Part shown: piece after piece, positions 12,280-39,596 of the stretch | Layout: every line of letters begins with the position of its first letter | Numbering within the stretch: position 1 is the first letter of the stretch | Assembly (NCBI GenBank): GCA_003194525.1 | Contig: NBIV01000184.1 | Location: forward strand, 1-64,000 | Reading direction: 5' to 3' | From: Gracilariopsis chorda | Lineage: Eukaryota > Rhodophyta > Florideophyceae > Gracilariales > Gracilariaceae | Length of the DNA stretch: 64,000 bases | Program-made: the position numbers and the translations under genes | The notes under the pieces: generated by a model | Seen by the model: only the letters and a program-made list of their open reading frames with translations | Database searches by the model: none | Told to the model about the DNA's origin: nothing

Positions 12280-14277
12280 TCACAGTATATCGTATATTCC
12301 TATGCCTGTTGGTGATGCTGACCGACAGTGGTTTGCGTACTTCACAAATGTCATCGCCGCTCCCGGCTCCAGCTTCATCAGCTTGCTTTCAACATCGGGA
12401 GTACATACTGCTTCATCACAGTATAACTGCGCTGAAATGAGTTTTGAGTCGGTTGGAAATGCACTCGTTTCGCACAGCCCTTTTACAATGTCCACGTAGT
12501 CTACGGCTTCATATTCTGGTCGTATCCGTCGAATAACGGTGTACCCTAGCTTGCCAAAAGTTACGCTCTGCTTGGTGAACGCCACAGCCTCATCATCGTC
12601 CTCACAAACCATAACAAACTCTGGAAACGCCATCTCCTCGCGATTCACAACCCCCACGGCTCGAACCTCAACCAGAGCTCCTTTCGGCAGAGCTGATACA
12701 GGTAACACTGCTACCACTACATGAGGCCTCTTTCTTTGCGCCAAAAGATCCTCTAGCTCATTGCGAACTTCTTGCACGAGACAGTCCCTCGTCGTATAAG
12801 CTATCAGCAACCCTATTTGCCGGAGGTTTGCATGACTTGCTTCCAGTGTGCATTCGAGGTTATACAGACATGCAGCGACTTGTGACTTTCCGTCAAACCT
12901 TCCCGGTACGCTGGCGGTAGGGGCATACAGGGGTAATACACCGCTTACGTGAATGACGCCGTCTTCTTCAACAAATTGCGCGTATGGTCCGATACAGGGT
13001 GGTGCCCACTCCGAGAGTGACTGCACGTGCAATGCAAATGAACCTGGAGCATCCTTATTCCGCTTTCTTCTCACAAGAGCTTCAATTGTCGTTGGGTGGT
13101 TTTCGGCTGATACCGCTACGCACGCTCGAGCGGGAGGAGGTGTACACTCTGGAGTAGCAAATACTTCGTTATATCCGTTATTCGCCTCTTTGTAATTCTC
13201 CCCAGAAACTGACCGCAACAAGAGCGTTACATACATGATGCTCCCAAGTCTTTCACCATGTTCTTTCAAGACGCGTTGAAGGTGGGATGCGGCATGAACA
13301 ACGCCTTCTTTACCAACTTTCGGACTTTGTATCGATAAATACATGAGTCGGTCGCCGAATCCAGTAGTCACATTTAGAGCGTGTTGCTGGGTAGTTGTCG
13401 CATCGTTTTCTTCACTGCTAGATACCTTAGCTTGCGTTGCGGTATCGCAGCGCTTAATAATCTCTGTCCAAGTGGAATCGTGTTCAAAAACTGTGCTCGG
13501 TGGCGGTGTCGATGGCAAAGGAGTGTGTATTTCCGCGTCTGTAAGATCTGCCAGTTTGCTGGACAGTATTCGCAAGTACGAGACAGGAGCATGAGGATCT
13601 TCAGAATGAGAGATCGTTTCAGTCTCATCAAGAACAATTCGTTTCTGGAAGCCGGGCATCCAGAGTACAAGGCTTTCAAATTCTCCTCCTTCTCCACAGA
13701 CGTGTGAGCCATACTTCTGTTCCAGTTCATGCAGGATAGGTTGCATTTCCTCCAGGCTCTTACCAAGATGCGAGGAGTTGAGTCCCATACCAGCTACTTT
13801 GATTAACACTGCATGAACTCCAGCCTCGATCATTTCATCCAACAATTCCTTCTGATCTCGACGCCAAAGATAAGACAGTGAGAGCAATCCCACGCGAGAA
13901 GCAGCACTTTCGACACGCAATCGCTGGTAGTCAGACCATAGTGCGCCGGAGCAAACTGCTTCTATCTCTGGGTGTTCTCTTTTCACTTCCTGCAACAGAG
14001 CCACAAGGTCCTCAACTTCATCCATCTCCGTAGGAATATAAAAAAGATCACTTTCTATTGCATTTGCGTTCGTCTTTCTCGTGAAAAGGGGCAAGTTGAG
14101 GGCGGTGGCTATCAATGGCACAACATTCGATCCTACGGACTGGTACATAAACGAATCAGCTTCCTCCTGCGGGGGTGTGATGTGAGCGACTGCAACGACC
14201 TCATGACCATGAATTCGAGATCGAAGAAGAGAATAGCAGCTGTCCTTCCCGCCACTTAACAGAGCAACGACCTTCAT
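12280..14277 (-). CDS. DPH6: Diphthine--ammonia ligase (DPH6) with two RidA-like domains
   Basis: 665 residues from the ATG at 14275-14277. The enzyme performs the last step of diphthamide synthesis on elongation factor 2, amidating diphthine with ammonia and ATP in the cytosol. The N-terminal adenine-nucleotide alpha-hydrolase domain starts with MKVVALLSGGKDSCYSLL (P-loop SGGKDS at residues 8-13) and ends with CGEGGEFESLVLWMP near residue 200, the signature of this family. Two RidA/YjgF-like domains follow (about 300-390 and 415-545; the second has IGPYAQFVEEDGVIHVSGVL), the eukaryotic long form as in yeast. About 120 further residues close the protein. No indels. Head-to-head with the TOG-TACC gene across 597 bp. 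Confidence 0.93.
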   Translation of the reverse strand: MKVVALLSGGKDSCYSLLRSRIHGHEVVAVAHITPPQEEADSFMYQSVGSNVVPLIATALNLPLFTRKTNANAIESDLFYIPTEMDEVEDLVALLQEVKREHPEIEAVCSGALWSDYQRLRVESAASRVGLLSLSYLWRRDQKELLDEMIEAGVHAVLIKVAGMGLNSSHLGKSLEEMQPILHELEQKYGSHVCGEGGEFESLVLWMPGFQKRIVLDETETISHSEDPHAPVSYLRILSSKLADLTDAEIHTPLPSTPPPSTVFEHDSTWTEIIKRCDTATQAKVSSSEENDATTTQQHALNVTTGFGDRLMYLSIQSPKVGKEGVVHAASHLQRVLKEHGERLGSIMYVTLLLRSVSGENYKEANNGYNEVFATPECTPPPARACVAVSAENHPTTIEALVRRKRNKDAPGSFALHVQSLSEWAPPCIGPYAQFVEEDGVIHVSGVLPLYAPTASVPGRFDGKSQVAACLYNLECTLEASHANLRQIGLLIAYTTRDCLVQEVRNELEDLLAQRKRPHVVVAVLPVSALPKGALVEVRAVGVVNREEMAFPEFVMVCEDDDEAVAFTKQSVTFGKLGYTVIRRIRPEYEAVDYVDIVKGLCETSAFPTDSKLISAQLYCDEAVCTPDVESKLMKLEPGAAMTFVKYANHCRSASPTGIGIYDIL

Positions 14278-19700: not shown

Positions 19701-20496
19701 TGAAGTAAAATGCCCTCAGAGAGGGATTATTGGTACTTGGTTGATTTCCCGAATTTTTCGGTAATGTAGTCATTGCATGAGCTACGACCACTAATAATGG
19801 ATTTGAAATGTGGGACACGGAAGAGTCAATTGGCAGTTGGTCACAGTGGTGGGTATGAACCACCAAAGTGGAGCTATTTATTTAATTCTATTTATTATTT
19901 TTACACCCATTTCTGGGATGTTTAGTACTTAGTATGTCGGCAGGTTGCCGTCACACCAGTAAACCTTCCCCAACAAGGGAACCCAACCTGGGGAATTGGC
20001 TCTATACCTCACCGCCTTCGCGTGTTCTCTACTCCTCTTTGGAGGGAAGCACCTTCGCATACGGGAAGTCTAACCCCCTTGCCTATCTAAAGGACCCGAA
20101 TATTCGGATTTTTATTCCAGCTGTCTTTTTGTTCGCCTTCTATAAGGTTTATTTACCGGCACTGCCGTTAGTCTTCGTCACGACACTCGTGACTCAGCTC
20201 CCCCCTTCCTTTTTTTTTACAGGGTGGCTTTCCCGCTACCCACGGCTCGTGTTCGCGGGTGCCAATAACGTGGAAACCTCACCTATCTAGAGGACGACCA
20301 CCCCCATACACCGCTCTTATGGATACCCGAATCTTGCCTCAACCTCCCTGCGCAAGTCACGACGGGTGGCCTCGGCCTTACAACCGGACATAGTCGTGCC
20401 ACTCCTGGGAGGGCTCTACCCAACTGGGCTCACCTCTAACGAGGAAAGATCCCGAACGTATTTTGGTGCACTCCCGCTTCCGGGCATTGCACTACA
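19701..20496 (+). repeat. Element A 5' LTR
   Basis: 796 bp, TGAAGTAAAATGCCC … GGGCATTGCACTACA. Same length as the 3' copy at 48493-49288. The end motif is the imperfect inverse of the start, as expected for LTR termini. Confidence 0.92.
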
Positions 20497-20499
20497 AAG

Positions 20500-20612: not shown

Positions 20613-22752
20613 ATGTCGAGGAAGCCCTCCTCTGCGGAGCCTGCAACTAAGTGCAGTCGCTCCCACAATGGTGGAGATAACCCCGAAGTTCGGTTCGTTT
20701 CTCGGATCCCGACTAGGGTTAAATCCAGCCATGCTGGGGGTGCCTCGTCTAGGACTTCAAACCCAGCCCGGGATCCCCGGAACTCCACGTCGACCCCGTT
20801 ATCGAATGCCGTGGATGGTGCTCATCCGGCCCCAGCCGTGGCCGCCGTCGCACCTGAACCCCGTCTAACAGTCGATACCACCCCTGAGGGGAATTCCCTG
20901 GAATCTCAGGTTTACGCTTTGTGGACCGCCCACGACACCCTCGTCGGTGAATTACAAACCCTCCGTGAGGTGGTGATGGACACCCCTAGAAAGGTGGTCG
21001 CAGAGGATCTCCGTACCTTACGTCCGATTTCAACTGTATGTTAGAGAGTTTGGGGCAACCTGCCACCTTCATAGAAGGAGTTGACTCTCGATTTGGTCGA
21101 GTTCGTGCCCGTCTGGAGACGTTAGAGCAGTTTATTCTCATGAATAAACCGTCCCCGGATGATCCGGCACCAGCTGCGTCACACCACGACCAGCATGCTG
21201 GAAGAAAGAAGCGCCGCTATAAGCGGAAACAGAAACGAGATCACTTGGATTCCGATTCTACGACATCATCGGATTCATCCCGAAACGGGTCAGATGGTTC
21301 TAGTTCCTCGGATTCCGATTCGGAGGACGAGAAACGAGGCCATTCTTCCCACTCTAAGCAGTCATCCGCCACCCAAGGTGGGATCCGGACCCGCAGCAAG
21401 GGGAGAAGACACCCTGGCCTCAGGGAATTAAAAACGACGAACCCGTTGTATCGGAAACTATTGTCCTACCGTTACTACCGGCTCGAAGATTCCTCTTTAG
21501 AACGTACACCCCGTGGCACGGGGAAGGTGAAAGAGTGCATAAAGCGTATGCAACTCTCGCTGCGTAACCAGTATTTTACTGGAGAAGACCCAATTATGGT
21601 GTTAGGCTTTCTTTCCCGCTTTGTAGCGGAAGCCGATATCCTCGGAATGAATGAGGGACAAGTCTATTTTGCATTACCGTATTTCTTACGGGGAGTGGCA
21701 GAGGACCAGTACACCTCTGTCAGAAGATCATCTCGTGCCTCAGAGGGAGGATTAACCTGCTGGCCGGAGGCGATGCAATATTTATTGCGCTCCTATGCCA
21801 CCAATACCGCCATTCAAGCGGCAATCCTCGCTTTGCGAGATACTCGTCAGCGCTCAGGCAAGAGTGAAACCGACTACTCGGTGCGCCTTAACAAGGCCTT
21901 CCACCGATGTGGGAATGTATACCCCGCAGGGGAACGTTGTACCATGTTCATCTATGGCCTTGACCCGGCAATCCGGAGTCTTGTCACTAGTTACCGCGAG
22001 GAAAAGCGGAGGGTCACCTACCTCGAGCTTGTTCAACACGCTCGAGCGGAAGGGGAAGCACTTTATGCAAGAACTCCGAATCCTCGGTCTAGGCCCGCCA
22101 AGGCGTTGGTGCTGGAGAGTGACTCCTCATCGCCCTCACTTTTGCGAATAGAACCCCTCAACAGGGATACGACACCGTGCATTTTGCACAGGGAGATGGT
22201 GTGTCTATACAAACCACGTACTTACCTTCAACGACGGAGGACACGTTCGAAACGGCGCAAGATAACCCCGTATTGTACGTGGGGAACAATCGCGTTCAGC
22301 CGCCACGAACCCCGTTTATGAACGGCCAATCCCGTTATCAGCGGCCTGGATGGAATGACACCCACCCGGCGGTACGCTTCTCCGATGCTCGGGATATTAA
22401 CCGGCGCGTCGCCGTGTTGGCTCTAATTTGCCACCTTTGCTACACCCATGGCCATACATCCCCTCAGTGTCTTTGCTCACTGAAGAATATGGCCAAGGTG
22501 GTGGAAAATTACGAGGCCCTCACTCCAGAGGAGAAACGTTCCGTTCCGAGGGCTTCCTACCTCCGTGCTAACACGGACTTCTCGCATGCCTTGCCACATA
22601 TCCGGCGTGCAAGGCTAGCTTTAATTAACCCGAAACGTCCGACGCAACCACTGCTTATGCGGATAAAACCCCCGGCCCCCGGAAGAAAGCTCTGGTGGTC
22701 GAAGATCCTGGACTACCACCTACGGCGGGAAACTCCCAGGAAAACTAACTGA
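20613..22752 (+). pseudogene. Element A Gag, frameshifted
   Basis: Three overlapping frames (20613-21044, 21038-22321, 22177-22752) together align along their whole length with the intact Gag of element B. Shared blocks: RRHPGLRELKTTNPLYRKLL, YRYYRLEDSS, LPYFLRGVAEDQYTSVR, SRASEGGLTCWPEAMQYLLR and the CCHC zinc knuckle CHLCYTHGHTSPQC near 22430-22475. Gag forms the virus-like particle and the knuckle binds RNA. Two frameshifts (near 21035 and 22180) disable this copy. A Ser/Asp-rich low-complexity stretch lies near 21250-21340. Confidence 0.85.
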
Positions 22753-22755
22753 GGG

Positions 22756-22990
22756 AGTCTCCTCTTTGGGAAAGGCGTCCTCAGAGATGAGGCTGTTGAC
22801 GCCCGAGGCGTCGCCACCTCACTCCCGGGTGAAAATCCTTTCAAGGAAGGACCCCGCAGATGCGGACTCTGCACACCTTTCTGTGCTGCGTCGCCCGTGG
22901 ATACGGAGTAAAACCCCCGGATCCCGGATAGAGTCTCGGTTATGGCCAAGCGCAACTACAACGTCAGTGTTCTCGGAATGCTAGATAGAG
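22756..22990 (+). pseudogene. Element A Pol N-terminus, broken at the protease
   Basis: Aligns with the first 95 residues of element B Pol: RLLTPEASPPHSRVKILSRK, LSVLRRPWIRS, then after a frame change MAKRNYNV and LDRGAR at the protease active site. Homology stops at about 22990. Compared with B, some 14 residues are missing between NYNV and the active site. The downstream part of Pol resumes at 41041. Confidence 0.7.
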
Positions 22991-23800
22991 GTGCTAGATC
23001 GCAAGTTTCTTAGGCAAAAGCTCAAAGATACTACGAACATGATAGATTATGCTAGTTTCTGGCGCTTGCCAAGTAAAAGAAAAGATTTTTTGGAATTCAT
23101 ATTTCCATATCTTACAGAGCCTTGCCTCACCTGCACTACCCATCGTTAATTTCAAGTTTGGAGCATGTTCACTCTCCACTAAAAGCCAGATACAGATCTC
23201 GAAATGGCGATGGCCGCGCAGCGGCCAGCGCCATTTCGAGCACCCAACCAAAACTAACATTTTTATTTCCATCTTTTGAACTTCAAACTTCATACTGCCC
23301 TAGTTTGACTTCCAACTCATCCTCAGGAACTCATCTGGGCAGCTCTCTCCGTTCTCACACACCCGACGCACCGTGCATCAGATTCCAATACCACCCATTC
23401 CGCCGTCCTAACAGCCTCAACGGCACTCCTAAACATCACTAGCCTTCTTCTCCCTCTTCCCTCTTTCCATGCCTCCTCTTCAACCGACTCTTAACCTCCA
23501 ATCCTTCTTCGTCCTTCTCCTCCAACCTCGTTTCACGACCCCATCTTCACGCCCAGCACTGCACGTGTCGTAGTACACATCTCTTTGTACATGTTGCGCG
23601 ACGCACGGCAGTACACAGCATGATGAACCATTCGGAAGTCATCAAGTGATTGGCACTCCACCCGATGGTGCTTCCTCAGATTTATCCTCTGCATCCATGG
23701 ATGGGAATGCTTCACTGCATTTCCGCTTGCAGGCCACTCAATTGGCAATGAGTATAACAGGTCCACCCAAGACATGTCCGCACCCATAGCCAGCTGTCCT
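22991..23800. other. Segment C, left part (3' side of the ParB-like frame)
   Basis: Non-LTR DNA between the broken element A protease and the element B 3' LTR. Adjacent to B, on the minus strand, the ParB-like frame of 35388-37974 continues for about 20 codons to a TGA near 23735, once the B target duplication is discounted. A second minus frame stays open from the LTR down to 23533. The segment also contains the hairpin at 23198-23240. Confidence 0.5.
23198..23240. repeat. Strong hairpin, 20-bp arms, 3-base loop
   Basis: Arm CTCGAAATGGCGATGGCCGC (23198-23217), loop GCA, and a reverse-complementary arm at 23221-23240 with one mismatch. It lies in segment C, downstream of the ParB-like frame, where it could act in 3' end formation or be a transposon-derived foldback. 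Confidence 0.85.
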
Positions 23801-24713
23801 TGTGGTGCAATCCCGGTGTGGGAAAGGCACCCAAGGCAGCTCGAAGCCTTGCTCTCTTGGAGAGGTAGGCCCAGCTGAGTAGAGCCCTCCGTGTCCCGTA
23901 TGACGGGTGTAACTCCGTCGGGAGCCTGGATGTACCTCGGAGGTTTAGGGGTTAGAACGGGTCGGAACCACGGCTGGTACGGAAGTAGCCTGCGAGCAGG
24001 GGAACAAAAGAGGGAAAGGGACCACCCGACGGGGGCGTGCGGAAAGCGGGAAGAGACCCCGGAGGTGGGTGCCGATACACACGCACGAACACGCACCGCG
24101 CGGCGGTTAGGGGATATGAGGGGAAGAGATGGTCTCACGGTCTCACGACACACGTCGGTAATATCAATACCCAAAACTGGGGCGGAGATAGGGCCTGTAC
24201 GGGCGGTCACACGACAACAATGAATACCACGAGTGGTCACAACCCACTGGGTACGACGAGCACGGTCTCCTCGGTGGTGCGAGTCGGGTGAAACTAACGG
24301 GCAAGCGGTGTACCTCCGCGAGGAGTTAGACACTTCGCATGGCGAATAGAGTCAGAGCCGAACTCTCCTTTCTTTTCTTGGTGAGCTCGCCGTCGTGCGG
24401 CCGACGCTCAAGTACTAGCTCAGTGCAGTACAGTAGGTAGTGCACTAGCCTAAGTAAAATTAACCCCTAAACTACACTAAAATAAGTAGCCATTTTGGGC
24501 CTCCTGGCCGGGGCTGTAGCCACGTGTCCACCACCCTTGCCAGGCAAGTACCACAAAATATGAATGTTCCCATAACCACCCTGGGTAACCCGACCGCTAA
24601 TTAGCCCGGTAAACGGGGGCTAAAATTCATGCATCCCGCTTCATTGCTCGCACCGAGTACACCTCAGATATGAGTTTCACCATCGCCCGTACGCGGGAAT
24701 GTATTGCACTACA
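23801..24713 (-). repeat. Element B 3' LTR
   Basis: 913 bp, nearly identical to 34475-35387. In element orientation it starts TGTAGTGCAATACATTCCC and ends GGGATTGCACCACA. Confidence 0.95.
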
Positions 24714-24726
24714 CATCCCCCTCCTT
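24714..24726 (-). other. Element B polypurine tract
   Basis: On the minus strand AAGGAGGGGGATG abuts the 3' LTR start. Its position and purine run are those of the plus-strand primer of reverse transcription. Element A has the equivalent AAGGAGGGAGATA. Confidence 0.8.
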
Positions 24727-24777
24727 AAGGGCCGAAAACGAACGTGAGTATAGGCGTGAGGAGGTGAGGCGCGAGGG

Positions 24778-24785
24778 TATAAATA
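24778..24785 (+). promoter_or_regulatory. TATA box driving the antisense gene of element B
   Basis: TATAAATA on the plus strand, just inside the element next to the 3' LTR and 105 bp before the ATG at 24890. It points in the direction of the antisense gene, opposite to gag-pol. Position fits a dedicated promoter; activity is inferred. Confidence 0.5.
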
Positions 24786-24889
24786 GTCCCGACAAGGAAA
24801 TCGCCGAGATACCGGTCCCCCGTACCAACACGGTTACAACTGATCAACCCTCAGTACCTTCTTCAACAGACTCTGCGCCCCTCTCCGCT

Positions 24890-26605
24890 ATGACCAACAC
24901 TCCGTTTTCGAACAACCCGCCTGCGGGCGCCCCGCAGGGGACTTCTGCGAGCGAACAACCTTCCTCCGCGACGCCGGGGTTGCGGGTTCGTCACCCAACC
25001 TCTGGGTTTCTCTCCTTGCCTCTGCCTGGAGGATCGTCTCATGTTCCAACCTTGGATGCCTCGGATGCCGCGAGTATCGCCGCCTGGAATTCCGCTCAAG
25101 TGATACCGATCACTGCGACCGCGGCCGGCTGGGTGTCACCATCGACACTTTGGGCCCGCAATCCCCGGGAAGACGCTCTCCTCTTTTCGCGTGCGCCCTG
25201 GTTCCACCCCACATGGGTTTCCGACTCGGACCTCATCGACTCCTATGTGGAGGAGGGCGAGCTCCCAGGGGGACTAGGCCGGGATTTGGTCGACTCCTTC
25301 GACTGGAGGACGCGTATCGCGGTAGAGCCACAGTTCCTCGCACGGAAGCGCACCAGATATGGTTTCGAGAGGCTGAATGAAGCCCGTGCCGGGATGGCCA
25401 AGGTCGCCTACGACCGTCTCGCCCGCGCGAGTTATCCGGATGAGCTGATACCAATGGAATACAGCTTTGACCTCTCGCGGTACCGTACCTACGGTGAAGT
25501 CTCATACTGCGAGAACCTTGCTGCCTACCAGCCATCTACACCGTTCCGGTCCACTCCAATAGAAGCCGGGATGCTCCTCTGGAGGCGCCCAATTCTGCGT
25601 GCAGAGTTCCGATATCTTCGTCGTCCGAATCATCGCGGATCCTTCTTCGACCGACTCCGGTTTGAGCGAAAGGCGCGCTCCCGCTTCGGGTTCCTGGTAC
25701 CATACCAAAATCTCGAGGTCGAGAGGCTCCGTCCATCCGCGATGCGCGGCCGGTATGCACCTCTTCCCCATTGGTGGAGCAGGTTCGAAGTCCCGAGGGG
25801 ATGCTTTGCGGAGATGCCTCCGTGCCTCAGCTACATCGGTTCACGATTAATCAACAATCCGGATTCCGGTTACTGGACTCTCTTCCTCGCCGAATGGGCT
25901 GCTCGCGTTGCCGCATTTCTCCTCTGGGAGGTGTACGACAAGAACCGTCTGTGGTACATTCCTCCTCACCTACGCCAGGTTATCCGCCGATTGGATCTCT
26001 ATATCCCTCTGGGATCCGAAGCCAATGTGGATGAGCTTCAGTGCCTTCTGAACACCATCGATATGGTTAGCTGGGATACAGTCCCAGCCTCCAACGTCCC
26101 TGAAGGTGAGCCTTCCAGGCATGATCGCTCTCCAGGCCGGAGAAATCCAAACGCTGGCAACTTCGTCTTCTATGACCCTTGGGAGGTATCCGTGACTTCA
26201 CGGGCCCACGCGCTAGCGTTACGCGATGTACCACGCTCCGTTCCGCGAGGCCACCCGGTTGGGTTCATGTTTTCCGATGACTGGCACGGTTCCTACGAGG
26301 ATGATCCAATGGTGGATGACGACCCCGATGAGGTGGAGGAGGCCGTAGCCCCGGGAGCGGCGATGGTCGACGATCTCGACGGATCCGGCCAGCATGTGGC
26401 TGCTCCAGATGGCTGGAATATGGCCGCCAGTGCGGCTGCTTCTCCGTCTACCGCATCTCCGGTCCCCGTGGACCCTCAGGCCGTTGCCCTCAGGGCTCAC
26501 CTCCAGTCCATTGGAGTGGTTGCGCCTTCCAACCTCACCAGCGTGAGCGAGTTATTGGCTTTCGCGTCTGCGAACTACCAACCGCCAACGAGCGGCTCAT
26601 CCTAA
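24890..26605 (+). CDS. Antisense accessory protein of element B, unknown family
   Basis: 571 codons from the first ATG (MTNTPFSNNPPAG); the frame is open a further 62 codons upstream to a TTG. Lies between the chromodomain tail of pol and the 3' LTR, on the strand opposite to gag-pol. The N-terminal 110 residues are Pro/Ser/Thr-rich. The core, about residues 110-400, is rich in W, R and aromatic residues: RAPWFHPTWVSDSDLI, WRRPILRAEFRY, RSRFGFLVPYQNLEVERLRP, RGRYAPLPHWWSRFE, FLAEWAARVAAFLLWEVYDK. An acidic part follows (FVFYDPWE, DDPMVDDDPDEVEE) and a short helical C-terminus. The decayed counterpart in element A (46589-48436) aligns through all these blocks, so the frame has been kept over the divergence of the two families. 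No known domain, no catalytic motif, no membrane segment recognised. It could be a structural, regulatory or Env-like protein; nothing decides between these. Confidence 0.72.
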   Translation: MTNTPFSNNPPAGAPQGTSASEQPSSATPGLRVRHPTSGFLSLPLPGGSSHVPTLDASDAASIAAWNSAQVIPITATAAGWVSPSTLWARNPREDALLFSRAPWFHPTWVSDSDLIDSYVEEGELPGGLGRDLVDSFDWRTRIAVEPQFLARKRTRYGFERLNEARAGMAKVAYDRLARASYPDELIPMEYSFDLSRYRTYGEVSYCENLAAYQPSTPFRSTPIEAGMLLWRRPILRAEFRYLRRPNHRGSFFDRLRFERKARSRFGFLVPYQNLEVERLRPSAMRGRYAPLPHWWSRFEVPRGCFAEMPPCLSYIGSRLINNPDSGYWTLFLAEWAARVAAFLLWEVYDKNRLWYIPPHLRQVIRRLDLYIPLGSEANVDELQCLLNTIDMVSWDTVPASNVPEGEPSRHDRSPGRRNPNAGNFVFYDPWEVSVTSRAHALALRDVPRSVPRGHPVGFMFSDDWHGSYEDDPMVDDDPDEVEEAVAPGAAMVDDLDGSGQHVAAPDGWNMAASAAASPSTASPVPVDPQAVALRAHLQSIGVVAPSNLTSVSELLAFASANYQPPTSGSS

Positions 26606-26941
26606 GTCAGGATCCTGGACCGTGGCACACACACCTGATATAGGTTAGCGCTTAACGCTCCATAGCTTGTGGTAAACGACTTCCTTCTTCTATATCCGTA
26701 TGTCCGGACTCTTCTTTTTCTTCTTCATAGCATCTTCATGCTGGACCGCTAGGCGGTATTCTTCATTAAACCGTTACTTCGGTCGGACCGCTAGGCAGTG
26801 TGACGTCCAATGACCATTGGTTTCCCTATCCAGTCCATTACTTCGTGTAACCTTCTGTAGCCAGATCTCTTCCTGTGTCCTCTTCTCTTCAGAGACTTCT
26901 CTTCCGTCTTCGGAATCTTCTGCATAGTGCAGTGTATCGTC
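26606..26941. other. Spacer between antisense gene and pol tail of element B
   Basis: Convergent 3' region of the two transcription units. Pyrimidine-rich on the plus strand, with the block GGACCGCTAGGC repeated near 26743 and 26788. Probably carries both 3' ends; no gene seen. Confidence 0.45.
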
Positions 26942-27286
26942 CTACCCAACCTGGGCCATGTCCAAAGTGGATGGGAGTGGGAACCGCGTCCGGCGGTGGT
27001 AGGTTATCACCTTGGAACGAGGAAGGTGCTGAATGGGCTCCCATGTGTCCTCTTCCGGGGGGTATCCGTACCATCGGACTTGGTAAAACCACACTCCTTT
27101 GGAGTCCAGAACATGATCCACGATGTGGTCAACGACAAACTCCTGGTCGTACGTAGCCGGCTCCTGACCCGTCATGGCAGGGCTTAAGGGGAGAACCCTG
27201 TGAGGGGAATTGCCTGAAATTGGCGCGACCCTGCGGGCAAAGTCAGTTTTCCTCGACGCTGCGAGTGCTGGGACTTGATACCGCAT
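26942..27286 (-). CDS. Element B Pol C-terminal tail with chromodomain (separate frame)
   Basis: The 114-codon frame ends in a canonical chromodomain: YDQEFVVDHIVDHVLDSKG, then FYQVRWYGYP, EEDTWEPIQHLP. The aromatic cage positions (F/Y near the start, W of VRW, W of TWEP) are present. Chromodomains at the end of integrase direct chromoviruses to modified chromatin. The main pol frame stops at 27886, so about 600 bp in other frames separate the two; at least one frameshift has occurred. The counterpart in element A has the same layout, but its TWEP is TMEP. Confidence 0.8.
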   Translation of the reverse strand: MRYQVPALAASRKTDFARRVAPISGNSPHRVLPLSPAMTGQEPATYDQEFVVDHIVDHVLDSKGVWFYQVRWYGYPPEEDTWEPIQHLPRSKVITYHRRTRFPLPSTLDMAQVG

Positions 27287-27885
27287 TGCGGTCTTTCCGC
27301 TTCCTAATCCTCTCCTTGTGGGGGGGCCTTCCGTTCTAACCGGATTCCCCTATTGACTTGCAGCTCGCGAGCTCTTCTCCCACGCGACCCGTGCAACTCT
27401 GGTGAGTTTGACCGTTCACGGTGAGGGAGGCGGTTCACTACGGTTCCGACGCCAGGAGGCGGATTGCCATGCATCACACACTGTGATTGGCTGGCCGCTG
27501 GCGGCAAGTGTCGCGCGCGGTCTTTCCACGACGCGGGTCTTGACTGTACTCCTGACGCCGGCCGGCGGTATGTACGTGTACACCTTTCCACGGTTTGGAA
27601 TTTCGGGCTTCGTCCGCGTGACAGTGGCGTCACAGTGTCCATTTGTGGGGCTCTGCGGTAACGCACGCAGTGTCAACCACACTCTCCGTGTCCGCGGTTG
27701 CTTTTCAGCTCACCACGAAACTGGTTATGACCGAGGTTGTATGTGCTCCGTACTCGGAGATATCATTCGCCACATTAGTGACCACACCGAGTCCGGTTCA
27801 CTACTTCCCCCTTCGCTACCCAGCGACTCGCTCGACAGGGGTGCATCCGGGTCCGCGGAGACGGCCTTCTCGCTTCGTGATGCGT

Positions 27886-30800
27886 TCAACTCCTCCCTGC
27901 TCCGGGGTGCTCATCCGACGATACCGTATTCCCGATGCAGGCTCGTCCACTGTTCCCAACCTTCTCCCGTGCCGGGCTTACCACGCGTTCCGTGACGGCA
28001 GTACCCTTGCTCTGAAGGGCCTCGGTTAGCGCAGATTGCGGCGCGAGGGAACTCGCTCGCGAAGCCGTATGAAGCGGGACACCGTCCGACGCCGGAGCTT
28101 CCTTCCGCGATGGCGCGATCGATTCCCGTCCCTCCCCCTCCTTAGGTGAGAGGGCGGTGGGTTCAGGCTGAAGGACCTCCGCGGGCGGAGTAACGGTTAG
28201 GCGTTTGGGGTCAAGCGTGCGTTGCACGATACGCGCGGCGCGCTCAACCGGTTGATCGGCAATCGGAAGATCCGAGAGTCCCCGTTCCGGGTGCGGTAAG
28301 ACGGGTGGGCGGGACGGAAGCAGATTATCCGTTGGCGGAGTTACGAGGTCATCCTCCGGGATTGTCACGAGCGGTGATGAGCACTCAGGGGGCGCAGGCG
28401 CGTGGGCTACGCGGTCGCGTGAGACGCGTTCGAACTGGTTATCGATGTCCAGTACGACTGTGTCGTCGGCGACGGAAACCACCCGATAGGGTCCATTCAC
28501 TATCGGTGACAACTTGTGGCGCTTCTCCTTTTCGGGATTATAATATTCCTTTCGCAGGAAGACAGAATCCCCTTCCGAGACCTGGGGTATCGGGGTACGA
28601 ATCTTCGCGTCGAAGTTCTGTTTGTATGCCTTCTGGGCTTTTCCCATAGCCTTTCGGGCGGTAGGGACCATGTTCTTCAACCATTCCTTCCAGGAATCTC
28701 GATATAACCTTGGTGAAGGGTACCCCGAGACGTTCGGTTGCGCTTCAATAGCCATGGGTGGCGGAATCCGAGACAGGACCAGCTCAAATGGAGCGAGGGT
28801 CGTGACCCGGTGTACCTGGGTGTTATACGCGTACGTAATAGCGTCCTTGTACAAGTCCCATTCCATGGGGTGATCCGCGACATACGCGCGCAGTGCGTTG
28901 AGCATAGTACGATTGAATCGTTCCACTTGTCCGTTACACTGCGGGTGGTAGGTGGTAGTAAACATATTCTTGATTCCCAAGATTCTACATACGTCCTGAA
29001 AGAACTTTGAGGTAAATTGAGATCCGTTGTCGGAGAATAGATGTACCGGCGGGCCGTAAGTAAAGACCCAGTGGGTTACGAACGCACGCGCAACCACGTC
29101 CGCGGTAATCCGTTTAAGCGGTACTGTTCTCACCAACTTTGAGAAGCGGTCAGTAATGACGAGAAGATACTTGTAACCACGTTTGGTTTTGACAAGCTCG
29201 CCCAAGATATCAATAGCGACATATTCGAGTGGCGCCCGTGCCGAGAATAGTGTTAACTTCTTCGAGTACTTCCGAAGTTTCACATTATTCTTCGCACATT
29301 CCACGCACGAGCGGCGAACTGCATAGCAGTCAAATGCCATAGCAGGCCAATAGAAGTCCCTGCGAAGGGTCAGGTATAGTTTCCTCCCGCCGGGATGTGC
29401 ACCCAACTTCGCGTAATGCGATAGATGCAAGACGCGCTGCTGCAGCGTGTGAGGTACAACGATCTGTGGGGCCCGTGTCAGCGACCTGACTAGGTAGCCT
29501 CGATCGTTCACCGCAAAGGGTATCTGTGCACCCCCGTTAAGACGGGCACGAATCTGGGCACAGAAAGGATCCTGCTGTTGTTCACGGATCATTTCCTCAG
29601 AGGATATGGGAACAACCTGGCCATCCGGAGGATCCGTAGGGCTTGCAGCCAGAATATCATCACAGATGTCATCCCCATTCACGTCTGGGTCGTCTTCTTC
29701 CGTTCCCTCCGGGGATTGTGCCATGAAACATGGTATTTCCAGATCGTCGACCGGTTCGGTTTCCGCTGATGTTCCTAAGCGCGATAGGGCGTCAGCCTGA
29801 GTATTCAGGGATCTCTTCTTGTAGAGGACATCAAATGTAAATTCCGAGAGTCGGAGACGCCAACGCATGAGGCGGCCCGACGGTTCTCGAATTTCGAGTA
29901 GCCAACGGAGAGCCGAGTGATCGGTGTGAACCTTGAAATGGTTACCCATAAGGTATGGGCAAAGCGTTGCCAACGCCCAAACAACAGCAAGACACTCCTT
30001 CTCGGACACCGAGTAGTTGCGCTCGTGAACGTTCAACGAACGTGACCAATATCCGATCAGATGTCTTTCTCCTTCTTCCGTGACTTGAAACAACGCACAA
30101 CCCACCTGGTGGGCACTTGAGTCAGTATCCACTTCGAAGGGTAAGTCCGGGTGCGGTAAGGCCAGAACTGGCGGGGACGTTACAGCGTCGACAAGAGACG
30201 AGAATGCTGACGACTCAGCCTCGTCAAAGACGTCCAGTTCGGTGGGTTGTCCTTTCCGGAGGAGTGCGTTAAGCGGTGCTGACAAGTCGGCGAAGTTCGG
30301 GACGAATCGGCGATATACATTGCAAAGTCCTAGGAAGGATCGAAGCTCCGTTTGATTAGTCGGATGTTTCGCCTCTCGAAGTGATTTCACTCTTGCTTCA
30401 TCGATTGAAAGCTGTCCGGGGCGGATGATGTGTCCCAGATATTTTACCGAATCGGCGCAGAACTCACACTTTCCCAGCTTCAGGGTGATGCCCGCGTTGC
30501 GGAGCACTGTCAAGACTTCCCGGACATGGGACAGGTGATCGTCCAAGTTATTGGAGAACACTATAATGTCGTCCAAGTATACCAGACAGCTGGTCCATTT
30601 GAACTTCGCCAAGAGGATATCGATTGCCCGTTGGAATGTAGCTGGGGCATTCGTTAGTCCAAACGGCATTCGCTTAAAGCGATATAGTCCTTGATGGCAC
30701 ACAAACGCGGTCTTATCACGATCTTCTTTCCTAATAGGGACCTGCCAGTATCCCGAATTGGCATCAAGGGTAGTGAACACCGTGGCGCTCCCCAGGGAGT

Positions 30801-32280
30801 CAATGTACTCGTCCATTCGTGGAATCGGATAGACGTCCTTGACGGTAACCGCATTCAGGCGGCGGTAATCCACACAGAAACGCCATGATCCATCCGCTTT
30901 CGGAACAAGGACAACAGGAGAAGCCCAAGAGGATTATGCTGCTTCGATAACTCCAGCTCGCAGCATCTTCTCCACCTGAGATTTGTCTTCCCCCCTTGCT
31001 TTAGGGCCTGCCCGATACGGGTGCTGTGCAATAGGCCGTGTATCCGGCAACAAATCAATCCGATGTTCGGTTACCCGTATCGTCCCCAGGGAACCGTCCC
31101 ACATGGCGGTAAAGTCCCTGAGCATGTCACGAAACTTCTCACGATGAGATTCATTAATGTGATCCAGGTCCAACTTATCCAAAGCCTGTTCTGGGTCTAA
31201 CGCAGTATCTGCCGATGCTGAAGTCGTGCTCTTCTGAGCTTCTTCGACAGTCGAATCTGAACTTTTCCGGGCGGGATCCAACGGAACGAACGGGACCTCC
31301 TCCCCGTCCTTAGGGTCTTGTATTCCGAGAACGTCGGATATCGGAATCTTTGTAGGAAGGATAGCCAACGGATGCGGAAGCATGTTGCCCAGGACCTGGT
31401 TTTTAACCAACCACTGAGTGGTAGTTCCGAGGTTAGCAACGAGAACCTTAAAGGGTTTGTCCGGCTCGACGGATACGATCCCATTTGCTAATGCGAGACG
31501 GCGCTGTTCGTAGATCGAGGGGAGCGGTTGAACAACCTGCAACCCGTGGTGTTTGGATGTTACCAAGACCCACACCTGAGATTTCTTCGGGATCGAAACT
31601 GGTTCCGCGACGCGAATCTTCGTAGATGCTCGATCCACATTGAACGCTTCCTGAGCAGCAGGTAAAGGTACCCGTTTACGGGAGGCGTGTCGCAAGGGCT
31701 TCCGTACAATCGGGATGGTCGAACCGTTGGCCAATTCCACGGATCTGGAGCGAGGGGGGCTAGCTTCCACGAAGCGGTCACAGAAATCACAACCGAGGAT
31801 GACCGGTGCAGCAAGAGAATCGCATACGATGAAGTCCAACTTCACCACGTAGGTGCCTAGTCTGAGTACCAGAGGAATTGTTCCAAGAGTCTGGAGCGGG
31901 TTGTTATTAGCGTCCGCCAGATCCAGATTTGGACCTATGCGAATGCATTTCCGCATGGCGGGTGGAATAATCCCGATATTGATCAGGTTCGGAGCGGCAC
32001 CTGTATCCAGGACAGATAACTGACGAACCATGAACTGGTTAGAGAGACCGAGGTCACTATAAACTTTATAGTTCCTCTTGGCCATTACCAAAACTCGATC
32101 CGGGATGTGGAGGTTACGGGACCGTATCCACGGACGACGCAGAGCCACTAAGTGGTCCGAGCTCACGTCTTCTTGAGCCAGTTTCCTCGTAAGGATTTTG
32201 GCAGGGGAGCGAAGCGTTGGCGCCTCAGGCGTCTTCAACTTCAGCTTGGAAGACACCCCTCCCGTGGGGGAGACTCCCAA
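27886..32280 (-). pseudogene. Element B Pol: protease, RT, RNase H, integrase (one premature stop)
   Basis: The first part (32280-30934) holds the retropepsin (LDTGAAPNLI, Asp at residue 92, and VILGCDFCDRF). Then an in-frame TAA at 30934-30936 interrupts VIEAA/SSWASPVVLV, explained by one C-to-T change from CAA. Reverse transcriptase continues in the same frame: first catalytic Asp in FTTLDANSGYWQ, then FGLTNAPATFQRAI and VYLDDIIVFSNN. RNase H: VDTDSSAHQVGCALFQ and TDHSALRWLL. Integrase: HHCC finger (LGAHPGGRKLYLTLRR … SCVECAKN), catalytic Asp in VAIDILGELV, Asp in FSDNGSQFTS and Glu in NGQVERFNRTM. A Pro-rich tail follows. Apart from the stop the polyprotein is complete and catalytically intact. 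Pol overlaps gag in the -1 frame. Confidence 0.9.
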
Positions 32281-32282
32281 GA

Positions 32283-32292
32283 TTAGTTTTTC
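32283..32292 (-). promoter_or_regulatory. Candidate -1 ribosomal frameshift site at the gag-pol junction
   Basis: Gag ends CTG AAA AAC TAA. Pol is in the -1 frame and open across the site (GAA AAA CTA ATC TTG GGA). G-AAA-AAC resembles the A-AAA-AAC slippery heptamer placed directly before a stop. Element A has nearly the same bases at the same place (with one A fewer). Efficiency and any downstream structure are untested. Confidence 0.5.
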
Positions 32293-34325
32293 AGGACCGA
32301 ATCGACCGCTGGGTGCGGATGAGCCCGTTCCGAAAGGTTTGGGTTGTTACCGTTCGTGGTTTTCGCGGCTTCTCGAGCTTGAGCATTGTGGACCGCAGTC
32401 TTTGCGTCTTCATACGAATTACTCGGGACACGAGCCTTATGCTCCGGGGGGAGATTCTCATAATTTCCCACGATCTTCCACATCTCGCGAATGGGGAGGG
32501 TACACTGCGACGCAGTATGACCTTCAAAGTAACAAATGTAGCAAATCAGCGGGGCTGAACGTGTTCCGGTGGCGTGGGACATCATTCCGCGGTGCTGAGA
32601 GTGTTGTGGTTGTAATGCTAGTTGCTTCGGGTTGGACCATCCCGGGCGGTAGTGTCGTGTGGCGCTCGACGCGTAGGCTACCGGGGCTGGGGGAACCCGA
32701 CCGGGGTTTGCGTAAAAGGCCGGATCTACCACGGGTGGTGTAACCGTGGACGGCAGTTCCGAGGTTTCCAACGACTGTTCAAGACTGCCAAGATACTGGA
32801 TGTTATCCGCAAATCCGGAAGGTGGTCCCGGGTTAGGGAGAGATGCCGAGGAAGCCTCGTTCTCGACGAAGAGAGCCTTCGACGACCGACGCCTCGGGTC
32901 TCTCGCTCTGAGGGTGTCACCCTCAGCCTGCGCGTACTGGACCAGTTCCAGATACGTCGCCTTGCGCTTCTCTTCCCTGTAGCGGGACACCAGTGCCCTG
33001 ATACCAGGATCTAAACCATCCACCAGCATGGAGCAACGCTCAAAAGCGGTAAACACATTTCCACAGCGATGAAACGCTTTATTCAAGCGAGTTGAATACG
33101 ACGTTTCCGTTTCACCAGGCTTCTGTTTCGTATCGCGAACCGCCACGATGGCTTGACTGATTGCAGTTCCCGTCGCGTACGACCTGAGCAGGTAGTGTAC
33201 AGCCTCGGGCCAGCACGTAACACCTCCTTCTGAGGCCCTGGACGAACCCCTGACCGAGTTGTACTGATCTTCAGCCATTCCTGAAAGAAAGTAGGGCAAC
33301 GCAACGTATGCCTGCGCCTCACTCATTTCGAGTACCTTTGCTTCCTGCACAAAGCGGGCCAGAAAATCCAACACGAGGATCGGATCTTCACCGGAGAACT
33401 TCTGCTTAAGCATCGTCACATTCATACGACGTATGAGATCCTTCACCCGACCGGTGTCTCTCGAACTTCGAGTGCCCGAAGAGTCTTCCAATCGGTAATA
33501 ACGATAAGACAACAGCTTCCTGTAAAGGGGATTCGTCGGTTTCAATTCCTTCAAGCCGAGATGACGGCGACCTTTCTCCCGCGCACGGATTGCTCCATGG
33601 GAGGTGTAGGTAGCCCTCGAACTAGGTTCTTCTCCGCGACGGCGGCCTCTCCCTTCACGTGATGATCTCGAAGGCGAGCTACTCGAACTTGTTTCCGAGT
33701 CGGAACTTGACGAAAATTCATAACATTGAACTCTCTTTCCAGGGTGACGGGGGAGGTGACTGGAGTGGTGTTGGGTTGAGATGACCTTCACTTCCTCCTG
33801 TCTCGGAGCGTTCAGGTCTTCTCTGAGCAACGCTTCCAGCGTGTCCATACGTCCGGTTACCCGCATCATATGGGTTTTAACTTCCTCCACGAACTCCCGA
33901 TATCCTTCTACGAAGGCAGCCGGAGTACCCAGACACTCCAGAATGGAATTCACATCAGCTCTCAGGAGACGAATATCTCCCGAATAATCCCGAGCCAGGG
34001 AGTCACTCCATCGCCGTTCCAACTCGGTAACTTGCTGCGAGAGGGAGGCGTGGGCCACATTGGCAATGTCGATTCTCGACTCGAGGAGATGGTACTTAGG
34101 CGACCCGGGTCTCGGGGGGACAGCCGACGGCGTTTCGACCACCGGAGGTGGCGTAGTGGCCACAGCTGTCACGGCTCGAGGCACCGAGGTTGCCGATGGG
34201 ATTCCTTGGGATTCCAGACCGACGGCATCGGTAAGTAGTTGTTCCAGAACGGACCTTCGTGATCTCGCCGCTGCGGCGTTCCGTTGCGGACCATTCCTGG
34301 GGGAACTCGGAGCTGTGGGCAGCAT
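32283..34325 (-). CDS. Element B Gag
   Basis: 680 residues from the ATG at 34323-34325, intact. N-terminal third is polar with a coiled-coil-like stretch (about residues 85-170), then a Ser/Glu/Arg-rich linker (SSSSDSETSSSSSPSRSS). The capsid-like helical core covers about 245-470 (NPLYRKLLSYRYYRLEDSS, LPYFLSGMAEDQYNSVRGSS, TSYSTRLNKAFHRCGNVF). One CCHC zinc knuckle, CYICYFEGHTASQC, lies near residue 595. Gag would assemble the cytoplasmic particle that packages the RNA. The TAA stop sits on the candidate frameshift site leading into Pol. Confidence 0.9.
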   Translation of the reverse strand: MLPTAPSSPRNGPQRNAAAARSRRSVLEQLLTDAVGLESQGIPSATSVPRAVTAVATTPPPVVETPSAVPPRPGSPKYHLLESRIDIANVAHASLSQQVTELERRWSDSLARDYSGDIRLLRADVNSILECLGTPAAFVEGYREFVEEVKTHMMRVTGRMDTLEALLREDLNAPRQEEVKVISTQHHSSHLPRHPGKRVQCYEFSSSSDSETSSSSSPSRSSREGRGRRRGEEPSSRATYTSHGAIRAREKGRRHLGLKELKPTNPLYRKLLSYRYYRLEDSSGTRSSRDTGRVKDLIRRMNVTMLKQKFSGEDPILVLDFLARFVQEAKVLEMSEAQAYVALPYFLSGMAEDQYNSVRGSSRASEGGVTCWPEAVHYLLRSYATGTAISQAIVAVRDTKQKPGETETSYSTRLNKAFHRCGNVFTAFERCSMLVDGLDPGIRALVSRYREEKRKATYLELVQYAQAEGDTLRARDPRRRSSKALFVENEASSASLPNPGPPSGFADNIQYLGSLEQSLETSELPSTVTPPVVDPAFYANPGRVPPAPVAYASSATRHYRPGWSNPKQLALQPQHSQHRGMMSHATGTRSAPLICYICYFEGHTASQCTLPIREMWKIVGNYENLPPEHKARVPSNSYEDAKTAVHNAQAREAAKTTNGNNPNLSERAHPHPAVDSVLKN

Positions 34326-34450
34326 ACTGCAGACAGCCGTCCACGGCTTACTTCACCAGTCCCACGGCTTGGGAATCTCAACGAATGAGCAAAAAGGGAT
34401 AAAAGGGAAAAGGGGAAGCGGACTTCCGACAGGCCGGATTGAAAGCCAAA

Positions 34451-34472
34451 CCCGTTCTAGGTCGGGAGACCA
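34451..34472 (-). other. Element B primer binding site
   Basis: On the minus strand TGGTCTCCCGACCTAGAACG starts 2 bp after the 5' LTR. It is the same type as in element A. Confidence 0.7.
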
Positions 34473-34474
34473 CT

Positions 34475-35387
34475 TGTGGTGCAATCCCGGTGTGGGAAAG
34501 GCACCCAAGGCAGCTCGAAGCCTTGCTCTCTTGGAGAGGTAGGCCCAGCTGGGTAGAGCCCTCCGTGTCCCGTATGACGGGTGTAACTCCGTCGGGAGCC
34601 TGGATGTACCTCGGAGGTTTAGGGGTTCGAACGGGTCCGAACCACGGCTGGTACGGAAGTAGCCTGCAAGCAGGGGAACAAAAGAGGGAAAGGGACCACC
34701 CGACGGGGGCGTGCGGAAAGCGGGAAGAGACCCCGGAGGGGGGTGCCGATACACACGCACGAACACGCACCGCGCGGCGGTTAGGGGATATGAGGGGAAG
34801 AGATGGTCTCACGGTCTCACGACACACGTCGGTAATATCAATACCCAAAACTGGGGCGGAGATAGGGCCTGTACGGGCGGTCACACGACAACAATGAATA
34901 CCACGAGTGGTCACAACCCACTGGGTACGACGAGCACGGTCTCCTCGGTGGTGCGAGTCGGGTGAAACTACCGGGCAAGCGGTGTACCTCCGCGAGGAGT
35001 TAGACACTTCGCATGGCGAATAGAGTCAGAGCCGAACTCTCCTTTCTTTTCTTGGTGAGCTCGCCGTCGTGCGGCCGACGCTCAAGTACTAGCTCAGTGC
35101 AGTACAGTAGGTAGTGCACTAGCCTAAGTAAAATTAACCCCTAAACTACACTAAAATAAGTAGCCATTTTGGGCCTCCTGGCCGGGGCTGTAGCCACGTG
35201 TCCACCACCCTTGCCAGGCAAGTACCACAAAATATGAATGTTCCCATAACCACCCTGGGTAACCCGACCGCTAATTAGCCCGGTAAACAGGGGCTAAAAT
35301 TCATGCATCCCGCTTCATTGCTCGCACCGAGTACACCTCAGATATGAGTTTCACCATCGCCCGTACGCGGGAATGTATTGCACTACA
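34475..35387 (-). repeat. Element B 5' LTR
   Basis: 913 bp, nearly identical to 23801-24713. A sense open frame (35007 to about 34475) is present in both copies, but its content is not recognised. Confidence 0.95.
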
Positions 35388-37974
35388 CTCCTGGCGTACT
35401 TAAGCCAGCTAAAAGCTTGTTGGTATTCTTATCGGCAAAGCTGCCTGCGGTTTGCTGCTCCTCTGCCTCGTCTTCCTCATCATCCACAAAGTCCTCTTGA
35501 GCTTCATCCTCGCTTATCTCGAGCACAATGATCTCTTGTGCTGTTAACCACCTACTCAAATCTCTTCTTTCCACACTACGCAGCACCTCCACCACCTCCT
35601 GCGAGATACCAAATCCAAGTCGCTTCACATGAGATACAGTCGGCTTACGAATCGATCTTCTCTGCCTATTCACCGGTGGCTCAAAACCAACTGACTCTTC
35701 ATCTTCATCTTCGTCCAGCACGTCCACTTTACGCTTCTTTGAGATTCGCTTACTTCTTCAAGGCTCCTGGTCAGCGTTCAGAGGTTTTTGAGCAGCTTCT
35801 TCATTCAGACCAAGCAACTCGATCACGTCCACATCGGCCGCAGTGGGAGCAGCAGCAGTAGCATCCTGTCCCTGCATGCCCGACAAAGCACTGGACAACG
35901 TCCTACGAACATCTTTCACCTTATTACTCACTCTGGACTCCAGTGAACTGCGTTTCCCTTTCGTATAGCACTTCCCCAGACGAGATATGATATACTTTGA
36001 CACAGTCTGGTCAGAATCGCCGATGGTAACCGTGGTATTCATCACTTCCTGTATATTCTTTTTCTCCTTCATGGAACTCACCAGCTCACTGCAAATGTCA
36101 TACGTTGTAGAAGCGTAGTCGAAGAAGTACTTTCGGAAATCCTCAAACGGTCCCATCTTCACAGTGGCCGCCGAACTCACTCGAACATGCGCCTGTAGAC
36201 ATTGGATAGTAAAACGAAACTTATCCCCTGACATTCCAAGCAGAATATCACTAGAACCATGAGTGATTCCAATTTGAGGCGTCTCCTGCCACACCACATC
36301 GAAGAACTCTAACAGACCGGGATTACGCGCAAACTTCAGAGCAAGAGCAGAATGGCAATTGAAATGACGTATCTTCCCTTCTTTCCCCTTCGTCTCACTG
36401 CTCCACAACACCCCCGTGATTTGGCTTGGTTTAAGCTTCGACAAATCATACCCATCCTGCCCTACGCCATTACGAATAAACGATACAGCAGTGTGAATCT
36501 TATCTGCGAAGGACATCACCAGAATATTGGAGCTCAAATCATTCAACGTCTTCCCCAGCCACAACATCTCATTCAATGTCATTCTCTGGCCGTCGTTCCG
36601 TTCCCAAAGCGTGACGTTCAAACCAGCAGTAATCCGTGCCCATTTCGCACCATCCTGCTCGAGGTCCAGTAGAACAGTCACTCGATGGAAGCCATCCACT
36701 AAAACCACAGGAACAATCACACGCCCACTCGCATCAATAGCGTCACGAACCGGCACATCCTCCAACAGGGGTACCGCAATCGACCCAAGAGAAGGGATCC
36801 ATCCGAAGTTTCTCAGTTTTTTCGAAGTATCTCGAAGATGTTTTCCATTCTTAGAACGAACCATGTTCTTCGGAAATCGAATGTTGTGGATATCGATTAC
36901 GCAATTGTGCTGGTCATAATCATCTCGATTGATGTGTAAGACACCCAAACTGTTATCAACCTCTTCCGAAGGAACAGCATCACCGTCGTCATATAAAAAC
37001 CTCTCCTCCGGATCAAGATCGTTCCTGGAGAGTACAGGCACCTCTATGAAGTCATCATCGAAGCATGCTCCGACTTCAGGGCCTCCTCGGCTTCCAGAGC
37101 CGCCCGTGAGAGCACCTGTTGTTCCTCCACCGCTCTGACGGGTTTTCACCGGATCCTATCCACCGCTCTCAAAGCTCTTCACCGGCGCTTTGGTCACCAA
37201 AATGCTTGATGGTGTACCAGCAACAGCGGGAAGGCGCTTGACTTGTCTTGCAGTGGTCCTGGAAGCTGTACTTCTGTGGACAGTCTTCAAATTTGCTCTT
37301 GACTGCGGTGGAACCGACTCATTCCCCTCTCCGCCTTCATTTTTGACACTCATCATCGCAGTGTACCATGCATAGAAACCCGCTGAAACCATCTCCTTCA
37401 AAGTTGCGGGTGGTTCCTTGGGACCTCCAAAAACATAATGGTATTTCTCATCTTGGTGTGACGAAATATTTGTCTTAAAGATAACCACCAAGTCCTCTCC
37501 AGGTCTCTGCGTAGAGGACAGGGGATGGTTGTGTAGTGAACGACAGAGTCTCGTCCCCGGCTCCCCAGCAACGCCCACACCGTGCAATTTCGCCTCTCCT
37601 ACCTTCACCTTCGCATCAGTACTCCCAACTCGTACGAACAGATTGACCTCCGCATCGCTCTTAAGCACCTGACCCGTATTGCCCCCAATTGATGGCTCAG
37701 GGTGGCTGGCAGTTCGGGTGGCGCCCCGGCTCTTCACTTTGCCTCGCATGTTCGGAATGTCGATAACACGTCTCTTCGGCGAAACAGGCTTCCTCGCAGT
37801 CCGTTTCCGTGATGGCGCGTTTATCTTATTCCCAGTGGAATCCATGGCTGAGTACTTCAAAGGTCGCGCTTGCGTTTTCTTGGCACCCGCTGACGTCGAA
37901 TGCTCCCATGATCCCGTATGCTTGGTTCCAAAGAGATGGACGTAAGCACTATATATCGCTTTCATGACATCCAT
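35388..37974 (-). pseudogene. ParB/sulfiredoxin-like protein of segment C, two in-frame stops, cut by element B
   Basis: From the ATG at 37974 one frame runs about 860 codons to the element B LTR without any frameshift, broken only by TAG (37156-37158) and TGA (35758-35760). Past B the frame continues about 20 codons (near 23800-23735). N-terminal 275 residues: basic linker, then a soluble domain (VNLFVRVGSTDAKVKVGEAK). Middle: CVIDIHNIRFPKN, HLRDTSKKLRNFGWIPSLGS, then VVLVDGFHRVTVLLDLE. The I/L-x-R-x-N opening, the L-x2-FGWIP turn and the DG-x-HR motif are the plan of ParB N-terminal nuclease-like domains, where bacteria have GERR. A helical region (MTLNEMLWLGKTLNDLS) follows as in ParB. C-terminus: basic then very acidic (DEDEDEESVG, VDDEEDEAEEQQ). 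ParB-fold proteins bind or cut DNA; the role here is unknown. Not a family I know from eukaryotic transposons. Confidence 0.5.
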
Positions 37975-38045
37975 TGTCGTCAACGTAGCATCCCTGCAAT
38001 TTCCCTCCCAATTACTTGCATTGCAAAAGAATTTGTTAATTTTTT
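37924..38045. repeat. Direct repeat, copy 1 (start of the ParB-like gene)
   Basis: About 122 bp beginning GGTTCCAAAGAGATGGACG, repeated with a few changes at 38400-38523. It spans the first codons and upstream sequence of the ParB-like frame. The foldback element begins where this copy ends. Confidence 0.9.
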
Positions 38046-38198
38046 GGTCGAGGTCCGTGGTCCGGGGTGTCGTGGTGCACCATCGCGATTACGATGGAGC
38101 GCCAGGACGCGAAGTTTTAATTAAAATCCATGCCTGGCGCTCCATCGTAATCGCGATGGAGCATTATGACACCTCGGACCACGGACCTCGACCCAAAA
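38042..38198. mobile_element. Foldback (MITE-like) element, about 157 bp
   Basis: Long inverted repeat. The left arm opens GGTCGAGGTCCGTGGTCCG (38046), the right arm ends CGGACCACGGACCTCGACC (to 38193), and the arms pair almost throughout, including CGCGATTACGATGGAGCG and its complement. The short centre carries TTTTAATTAAAA, itself palindromic. No coding capacity. It looks like a small non-autonomous DNA element or a recombination product. Confidence 0.8.
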
Positions 38199-38399
38199 CG
38201 AAGAGAAACATAATCCGTGGCAACCAAGTCAAAAGCGTCTTGCGCATTCTTCGCAACCGCATTCGTTGCGTCGGTTTGGGCGATTGAAAACTTCTATTGA
38301 ACCCGAAGAACAACTTTTTCTTGTTAAACAAAGCACCGGAGTGGTCATCTCCAACAGTGTTACCCCTTTCTTTTGAAGTTCCCGTGATCACGCCTGCTA

Positions 38400-38523: not shown

Positions 38524-38573
38524 TTTCCGTCGGATCCGAGCGCACGACGAGTGATCGAACGACGAGTGAGAAT

Positions 38574-39539: not shown

Positions 39540-39596
39540 GTTTGAGGTCGAGCATGGGAGGATAGGGAAGGGTCTGCGGAAATTGGATTCCAGTCT

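Follow-up and report, generated by a model that had tools for sequence, protein, structure and literature searches.

An antisense gene of red-algal chromoviruses that apparently encodes a new protein family

Chromoviruses in the genome of the red alga Gracilariopsis chorda have a protein-coding gene on the strand opposite to gag-pol. In the two such elements, A and B, of the window (the 64,000-nucleotide stretch of contig NBIV01000184.1 analysed here) the gene lies between the chromodomain and the 3' LTR, and at ten further loci of the genome it lies beside pol. Judged by sequence divergence, the gene has been under purifying selection between lineages, and it apparently encodes a new protein family. 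New in the searches made are the protein family, its chromovirus setting and its host group; the antisense accessory ORF is as a kind already known.

The antisense gene in elements A and B

Element B is a Ty3/gypsy chromovirus with gag-pol and the chromodomain on the minus strand (Table 1). Both B and A have the chromovirus order of reverse transcriptase, RNase H and integrase followed by a chromodomain, which in this copy of B is in a frame different from the main pol frame. Neither the protease-like region nor the gag of B gave an accepted Pfam match. Beside B's 5' LTR, at 34420-34475, the minus strand reads TGGTCTCCCGACC, by eye a candidate tRNA primer-binding site, and the only candidate target-site duplication, likewise by eye, is a 4-base TCCT that is off by one base on one side.

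The sequence-only reading had reported an antisense frame of 571 codons from its first ATG in B and the same gene, decayed, at the same place and orientation in an element A with clearly diverged LTRs, and these observations were confirmed. B's frame has 571 codons from the ATG at 24890, 633 from a TTG at 24704 and 643 from stop to stop; the first 10 bases of the interval 24704-26605 fall within the 3' LTR. In a tblastn search B's protein matched the minus strand between A's chromodomain and A's 3' LTR, where the gene is broken into frames at 47357-48658, 47278-47847 and 46589-47236. The LTRs of A and B have only an 11-base end match in common (E 0.31). By chance alone, 500 second-order Markov sequences of 24714-27350 gave a longest ATG ORF with a median of 157 and a maximum of 374 codons. 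The possibility raised earlier that the frame is the shadow of a conserved sense frame is ruled out, as the largest minus-strand ATG ORF opposite it is 100 aa. B's antisense ORF is a real accessory gene. In A and B, whose LTRs are mapped, the gene has the arrangement of an aORF-3R (a term of PMC7264820), an ORF antisense between pol and the 3' LTR in most copies of a family, and the B-type protein recurs at the 76 places described below.

Element A is interrupted from about 23010 to 41055: 21017-23010 contains gag and the beginning of the protease region, the remainder of protease and pol follows from 41055 on, and B sits in the gap. Since 35388-40800 is a genomic repeat in its own right (40 places scored of 391 candidates, with 117 matched stretches), B appears to have inserted in another repeat that lies inside A. 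This high-copy repeat between the halves of A (35388-41054, perhaps also 23011-23800) is probably an unclassified transposon; its minus-strand ORFs gave no accepted Pfam match, and within it are a pair of 143-base direct repeats and, near 38041-38198, a palindrome. Elsewhere in the window, 49454-52543 holds fragments of another, distant Ty3/gypsy pol (about 29% identity to that of B) together with an A-like LTR in inverted orientation (51378-52208, 72%), and 6-127 is an A-like LTR fragment (74% identity across 125 bases). A host-like ORF at 12280-14277 encodes diphthamide synthase and L-PSP domains. A long plus-strand ORF at 56714-59890 is possibly a Dicer-related host gene: it has a double-stranded RNA-binding motif (E 3.4e-07) and, below the threshold, a match to the Dicer dimerisation domain.

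Table 1. Features of elements A and B and of the antisense gene, in window positions
Feature	Position	Strand	Remarks
5' LTR, element A	19701-20497	+	93.0% identical to 3' LTR
3' LTR, element B	23801-24713	-	7 differences of 913 vs 5' LTR
Polypurine tract, element B, adjoining 3' LTR	24714-24734	-	by eye
Candidate TATA box TATAAATA	24778-24785	+	consensus match only
Antisense accessory gene, element B	24890-26605	+	ATG to stop, 571 aa
Folded core, residues 81-450	25130-26239	+	model pLDDT 81.1, pTM 0.81
Acidic low-confidence linker, residues 451-526	26240-26467	+	pI 4.1; DDPMVD = residues 471-476
C-terminal helix pair, residues 527-571	26468-26602	+	helices 529-540, 552-562 (model)
Chromodomain, element B	26945-27349	-	PF00385, E 2.3e-11
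pol, element B: reverse transcriptase, RNase H, integrase	27886-30873	-	
Protease-like region, element B, up to reverse transcriptase start	30934-32280	-	DTGA motif by eye
gag, element B	32283-34325	-	CCHC zinc-knuckle motif
5' LTR, element B	34475-35387	-	7 differences of 913 vs 3' LTR
Chromodomain region, element A	46112-46396	+	
Antisense gene, element A	46589-48436	-	broken into three frames
3' LTR, element A	48493-49289	+	56 mismatches of 797 vs 5' LTR

Copies, relatives and selection

B's protein was scored at 76 places in the genome, of 1681 candidates, and 62 of these are free of internal stops in the matched span. The 1848 bases of A's antisense gene matched 43 stretches of DNA, and in 38 of these the match extends over 1697 bases or more; the frame over the gene is unbroken in one of the 14 A copies fetched, and the longest frames in the other 13 run to 231-519 codons. 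The annotated G. chorda protein BWQ96_10156 (P0003) has 97-99% matches at six places, which fits a host that is G. chorda or a near relation of it, and the queries P0003, P0004 and P0008 had many further genomic copies among the matches listed. Ten further loci were fetched with about 3.5 kb downstream. As they were picked from stop-free matches their openness is no evidence, while the presence of pol played no part in the choice. In all ten an opposite-strand pol lies downstream of the antisense frame (LTRs were mapped for A and B only). Their antisense proteins are 34-47% and their pols 40-72% identical to those of B, and the loci are partly non-independent, the antisense proteins of L057 and L061 being 96% and those of L056 and L062 91% identical. 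The gene occurs across lineages of only about 35-45% identity.

Protein searches recovered 17 homologues, known from protein sequence alone; two are named, both red-algal (G. chorda and Agarophyton chilense), and the other 15 are without a name. Across the 18 aligned sequences 11 residues are invariant besides the start methionine, among them E259, R260, R263, E300, E335 and W355. The family gave no accepted Pfam match, and no relatives were found among PDB sequences, phage or viral contigs. The prominent extra domains of plant elements are, in the accessible text of PMC6317226, the plant mobile domain, Transposase_28 and Athila ORF-1. The antisense protein matched neither the plant mobile domain (PF10536, hmmscan) nor the Athila ORF-1 domain, and the family gave no SMC match. 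Transposase_28 (PF04195) was not found at E up to 1 in nine family members, nor was it matched in P0004, P0010, P0012 and P0017 or in the alga's own genome (the search controls gave one signal, below the cut-off). Open-access papers on the retrotransposons of red algae, Gracilariopsis or Chondrus and their antisense or accessory ORFs showed no such gene in their titles and the beginnings of their abstracts, and the accessible parts of PMC6431247 and PMC2864245, on red algae, make no mention of one.

Structure prediction gave a confident model of the core (pTM 0.81) with no fold match, and so no functional clue. Short basic stretches occur in family members at positions that are not conserved. 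The maximum 19-residue hydropathy of B's protein is 1.29, and a few members reach 1.6-2.0 at the region that forms a long core helix in the B model. An Env-like protein, which would be encoded in the sense orientation and have a transmembrane segment, was rejected because the gene is antisense and B's hydropathy maximum is low.

Two pairs of elements of unsaturated divergence indicate purifying selection between lineages. L044 (A-type) and L057 (dS 0.85) have a dN/dS of 0.22 (bootstrap 0.18-0.27), with 0.18 for pol of the same lineages when the window's copy is used for A, and L056 and L062 (dS 0.29) have 0.16 (bootstrap 0.11-0.25), with 0.22 for pol. Five more distant pairs gave 0.15-0.20 for the antisense gene, although in four of the five dS is above 2.4 and saturated, so that the bootstrap ranges reach 0; in the four of these pairs with a pol to compare, pol was somewhat stricter (0.09-0.14 vs 0.15-0.20). 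Another set of five distant pairs gave 0.15-0.24, one with infinite dS. Together with a third-position excess of change in the gene, this codon-level signal indicates that selection acts on the protein. Antisense-protein and pol distances are also correlated among 11 elements (rho 0.69, a value that 15 of 5000 permutations attained); L061 was omitted as a near copy of L057, and for A the protein was taken from L044 and pol from the copy in the window.

Within subfamilies, 13 close pairs (dS under 0.15) scatter in dN/dS from 0.17 to 1.57, and B against L063 gave 0.82 (0.61-1.12), as expected if copies decay after insertion. Of the 30 B copies fetched, the best-scoring of the 76, 29 were used and L037 was dropped for a mismatched protein start. 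Singletons comprised 82 nonsynonymous, 51 synonymous and 2 nonsense changes (0.71 of neutral, p 0.06), doubletons 3 nonsynonymous and 6 synonymous (0.22, p 0.03), and variants in three or more copies 13 nonsynonymous and 2 synonymous (2.9, p 0.17). These copies give no clear signal and neither support nor refute selection, because they are young and the best-scoring of their kind.

The sequence-only reading had proposed a distinct accessory protein, maintained by selection and described in no family. The first part is supported by homology, by the constant placement relative to pol and by dN/dS far below 1 between lineages, a value near 1 being what would have spoken against it. The second holds within the databases and open-access papers searched, where nothing described matched.

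Possible expression and function

In B the sequence TATAAATA, which belongs to the internal region and separates the 3' LTR from the ORF, matches the TATA consensus perfectly and precedes the ATG by 112 nt. Upstream stretches of 29 to 250 nt were scanned in 25 sequences, and perfect TATAWAWR occurs in six of them, from three lineages (B, L053 and L054); in the A lineage it was not found. In L054 and L073 TATAWAWR follows the first in-frame ATG but still precedes the part homologous to B. The match is suggestive of a promoter of the gene's own. Under the explanation that we favour, the gene would be transcribed from such a promoter just inside the 3' LTR, towards pol, so that synthesis of its product need not depend on the sense genomic RNA. 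The predicted soluble protein, with its folded core, acidic linker and C-terminal helix pair, may then work in trans inside the nucleus, where it would regulate, or serve as an adaptor of, the element's genomic RNA, the pre-integration complex or silencing. This role is favoured by analogy with the antisense proteins of plant Grande (gene23) and Retand elements, and we hold the explanation as a whole tentatively, giving it slightly less than an even chance. Weighing against it are the perfect TATA match in only six of 25 sequences, the unconserved positions of the short basic stretches, the stricter pol of the distant pairs, the scatter of dN/dS within subfamilies, the mostly nonsynonymous variants shared by three or more B copies and the want of a fold match. 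The strongest form of the explanation, a new accessory family with a fold absent among solved structures that controls the nuclear phase of the red-algal chromovirus life cycle, is possible but rather unlikely.

A nuclear regulator is not the only kind of protein that could be maintained in this way. The product, made from a separate antisense mRNA, could instead serve the virus-like particle in its structure or assembly, for instance as a second capsid-like protein or a chaperone. The large folded core with its many conserved aromatic and charged residues would suit such a task, as would the number of B-protein copies still free of stops. However, a gag with a zinc knuckle is already present in B, and the family profile shows no similarity to it (probability 0.1); the core model, moreover, has no capsid-like fold match, leaving this role unlikely. 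We give about as little weight to a protein that would counter host silencing, for example of double-stranded RNA from convergent transcription. The layout is indeed convergent, towards pol, and the Dicer-like ORF with a double-stranded RNA-binding motif in the window makes RNA silencing in the host plausible, but the antisense protein resembles no described protein.

Two further readings fare much worse. Non-coding antisense transcripts are known in other elements (accessible text of PMC7264820), and here too the RNA could matter with the frame as a by-product; codon-level selection between lineages (dN/dS 0.16-0.22) and the third-position excess make this highly improbable. The recent capture of a host gene by a single element family seems just as far-fetched: LTR elements are known to capture genes (same source), but this one stands beside pol in all ten loci, from diverged lineages across which it is selected, and no name or Pfam domain among the 17 homologues points to a host gene. 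The data leave room for an ancient capture.

Relation to other antisense genes

In the accessible text of the sources cited here, the antisense accessory genes known in LTR elements are mostly those of land plants, and their origin is open; the function of plant antisense ORFs at this place is not known, and regulatory roles have been proposed (PMC7264820, PMC11963269). Grande gene23 and the related RIRE2 antisense ORF of grasses likewise lie between pol and the 3' LTR (PMC7264820). Transcription of gene23 from its own upstream promoter and the nuclear location of its product are described (PMC7264820), whereas the red-algal gene has a candidate TATA box and a proposed nuclear role; the two are likened by position. 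The Retand lineage of flowering plants has an antisense ORF with Transposase_28/TRP28 (PMC11963269), a domain that gave no match in the red-algal proteins searched, and Retand is a non-chromovirus lineage (PMC11963269) whereas B is a red-algal chromovirus with a chromodomain. The Boty antisense ORF of Botrytis and Sclerotinia (PMC7264820) is also found between pol and the 3' LTR and is likened by position alone, and PvRetro13 ORF2 (PMC7264820), with the same placement, has an SMC domain, for which the red-algal family gave no match. HBZ of HTLV is likewise antisense near the 3' LTR, and is itself nuclear and regulatory (PMC11963269, PMC7264820); the red-algal protein, in contrast, has no accepted Pfam match, and the HTLV antisense promoter is inside the 3' LTR whereas B's candidate promoter is internal. 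As a kind, the red-algal gene is a variant of the Grande, RIRE2 and Retand antisense ORFs, set in chromoviruses and encoding an apparently unrelated protein.

A selected gene at the same place, whose protein has no detectable likeness to those of plants, suggests more than one origin of the arrangement and a benefit to the element. The family is well conserved, with its 18 sequences, invariant residues and confident core model, and offers material for testing the function of such genes. If the protein does control the nuclear phase, red-algal elements would be retrovirus-like, with an independently expressed regulatory gene.
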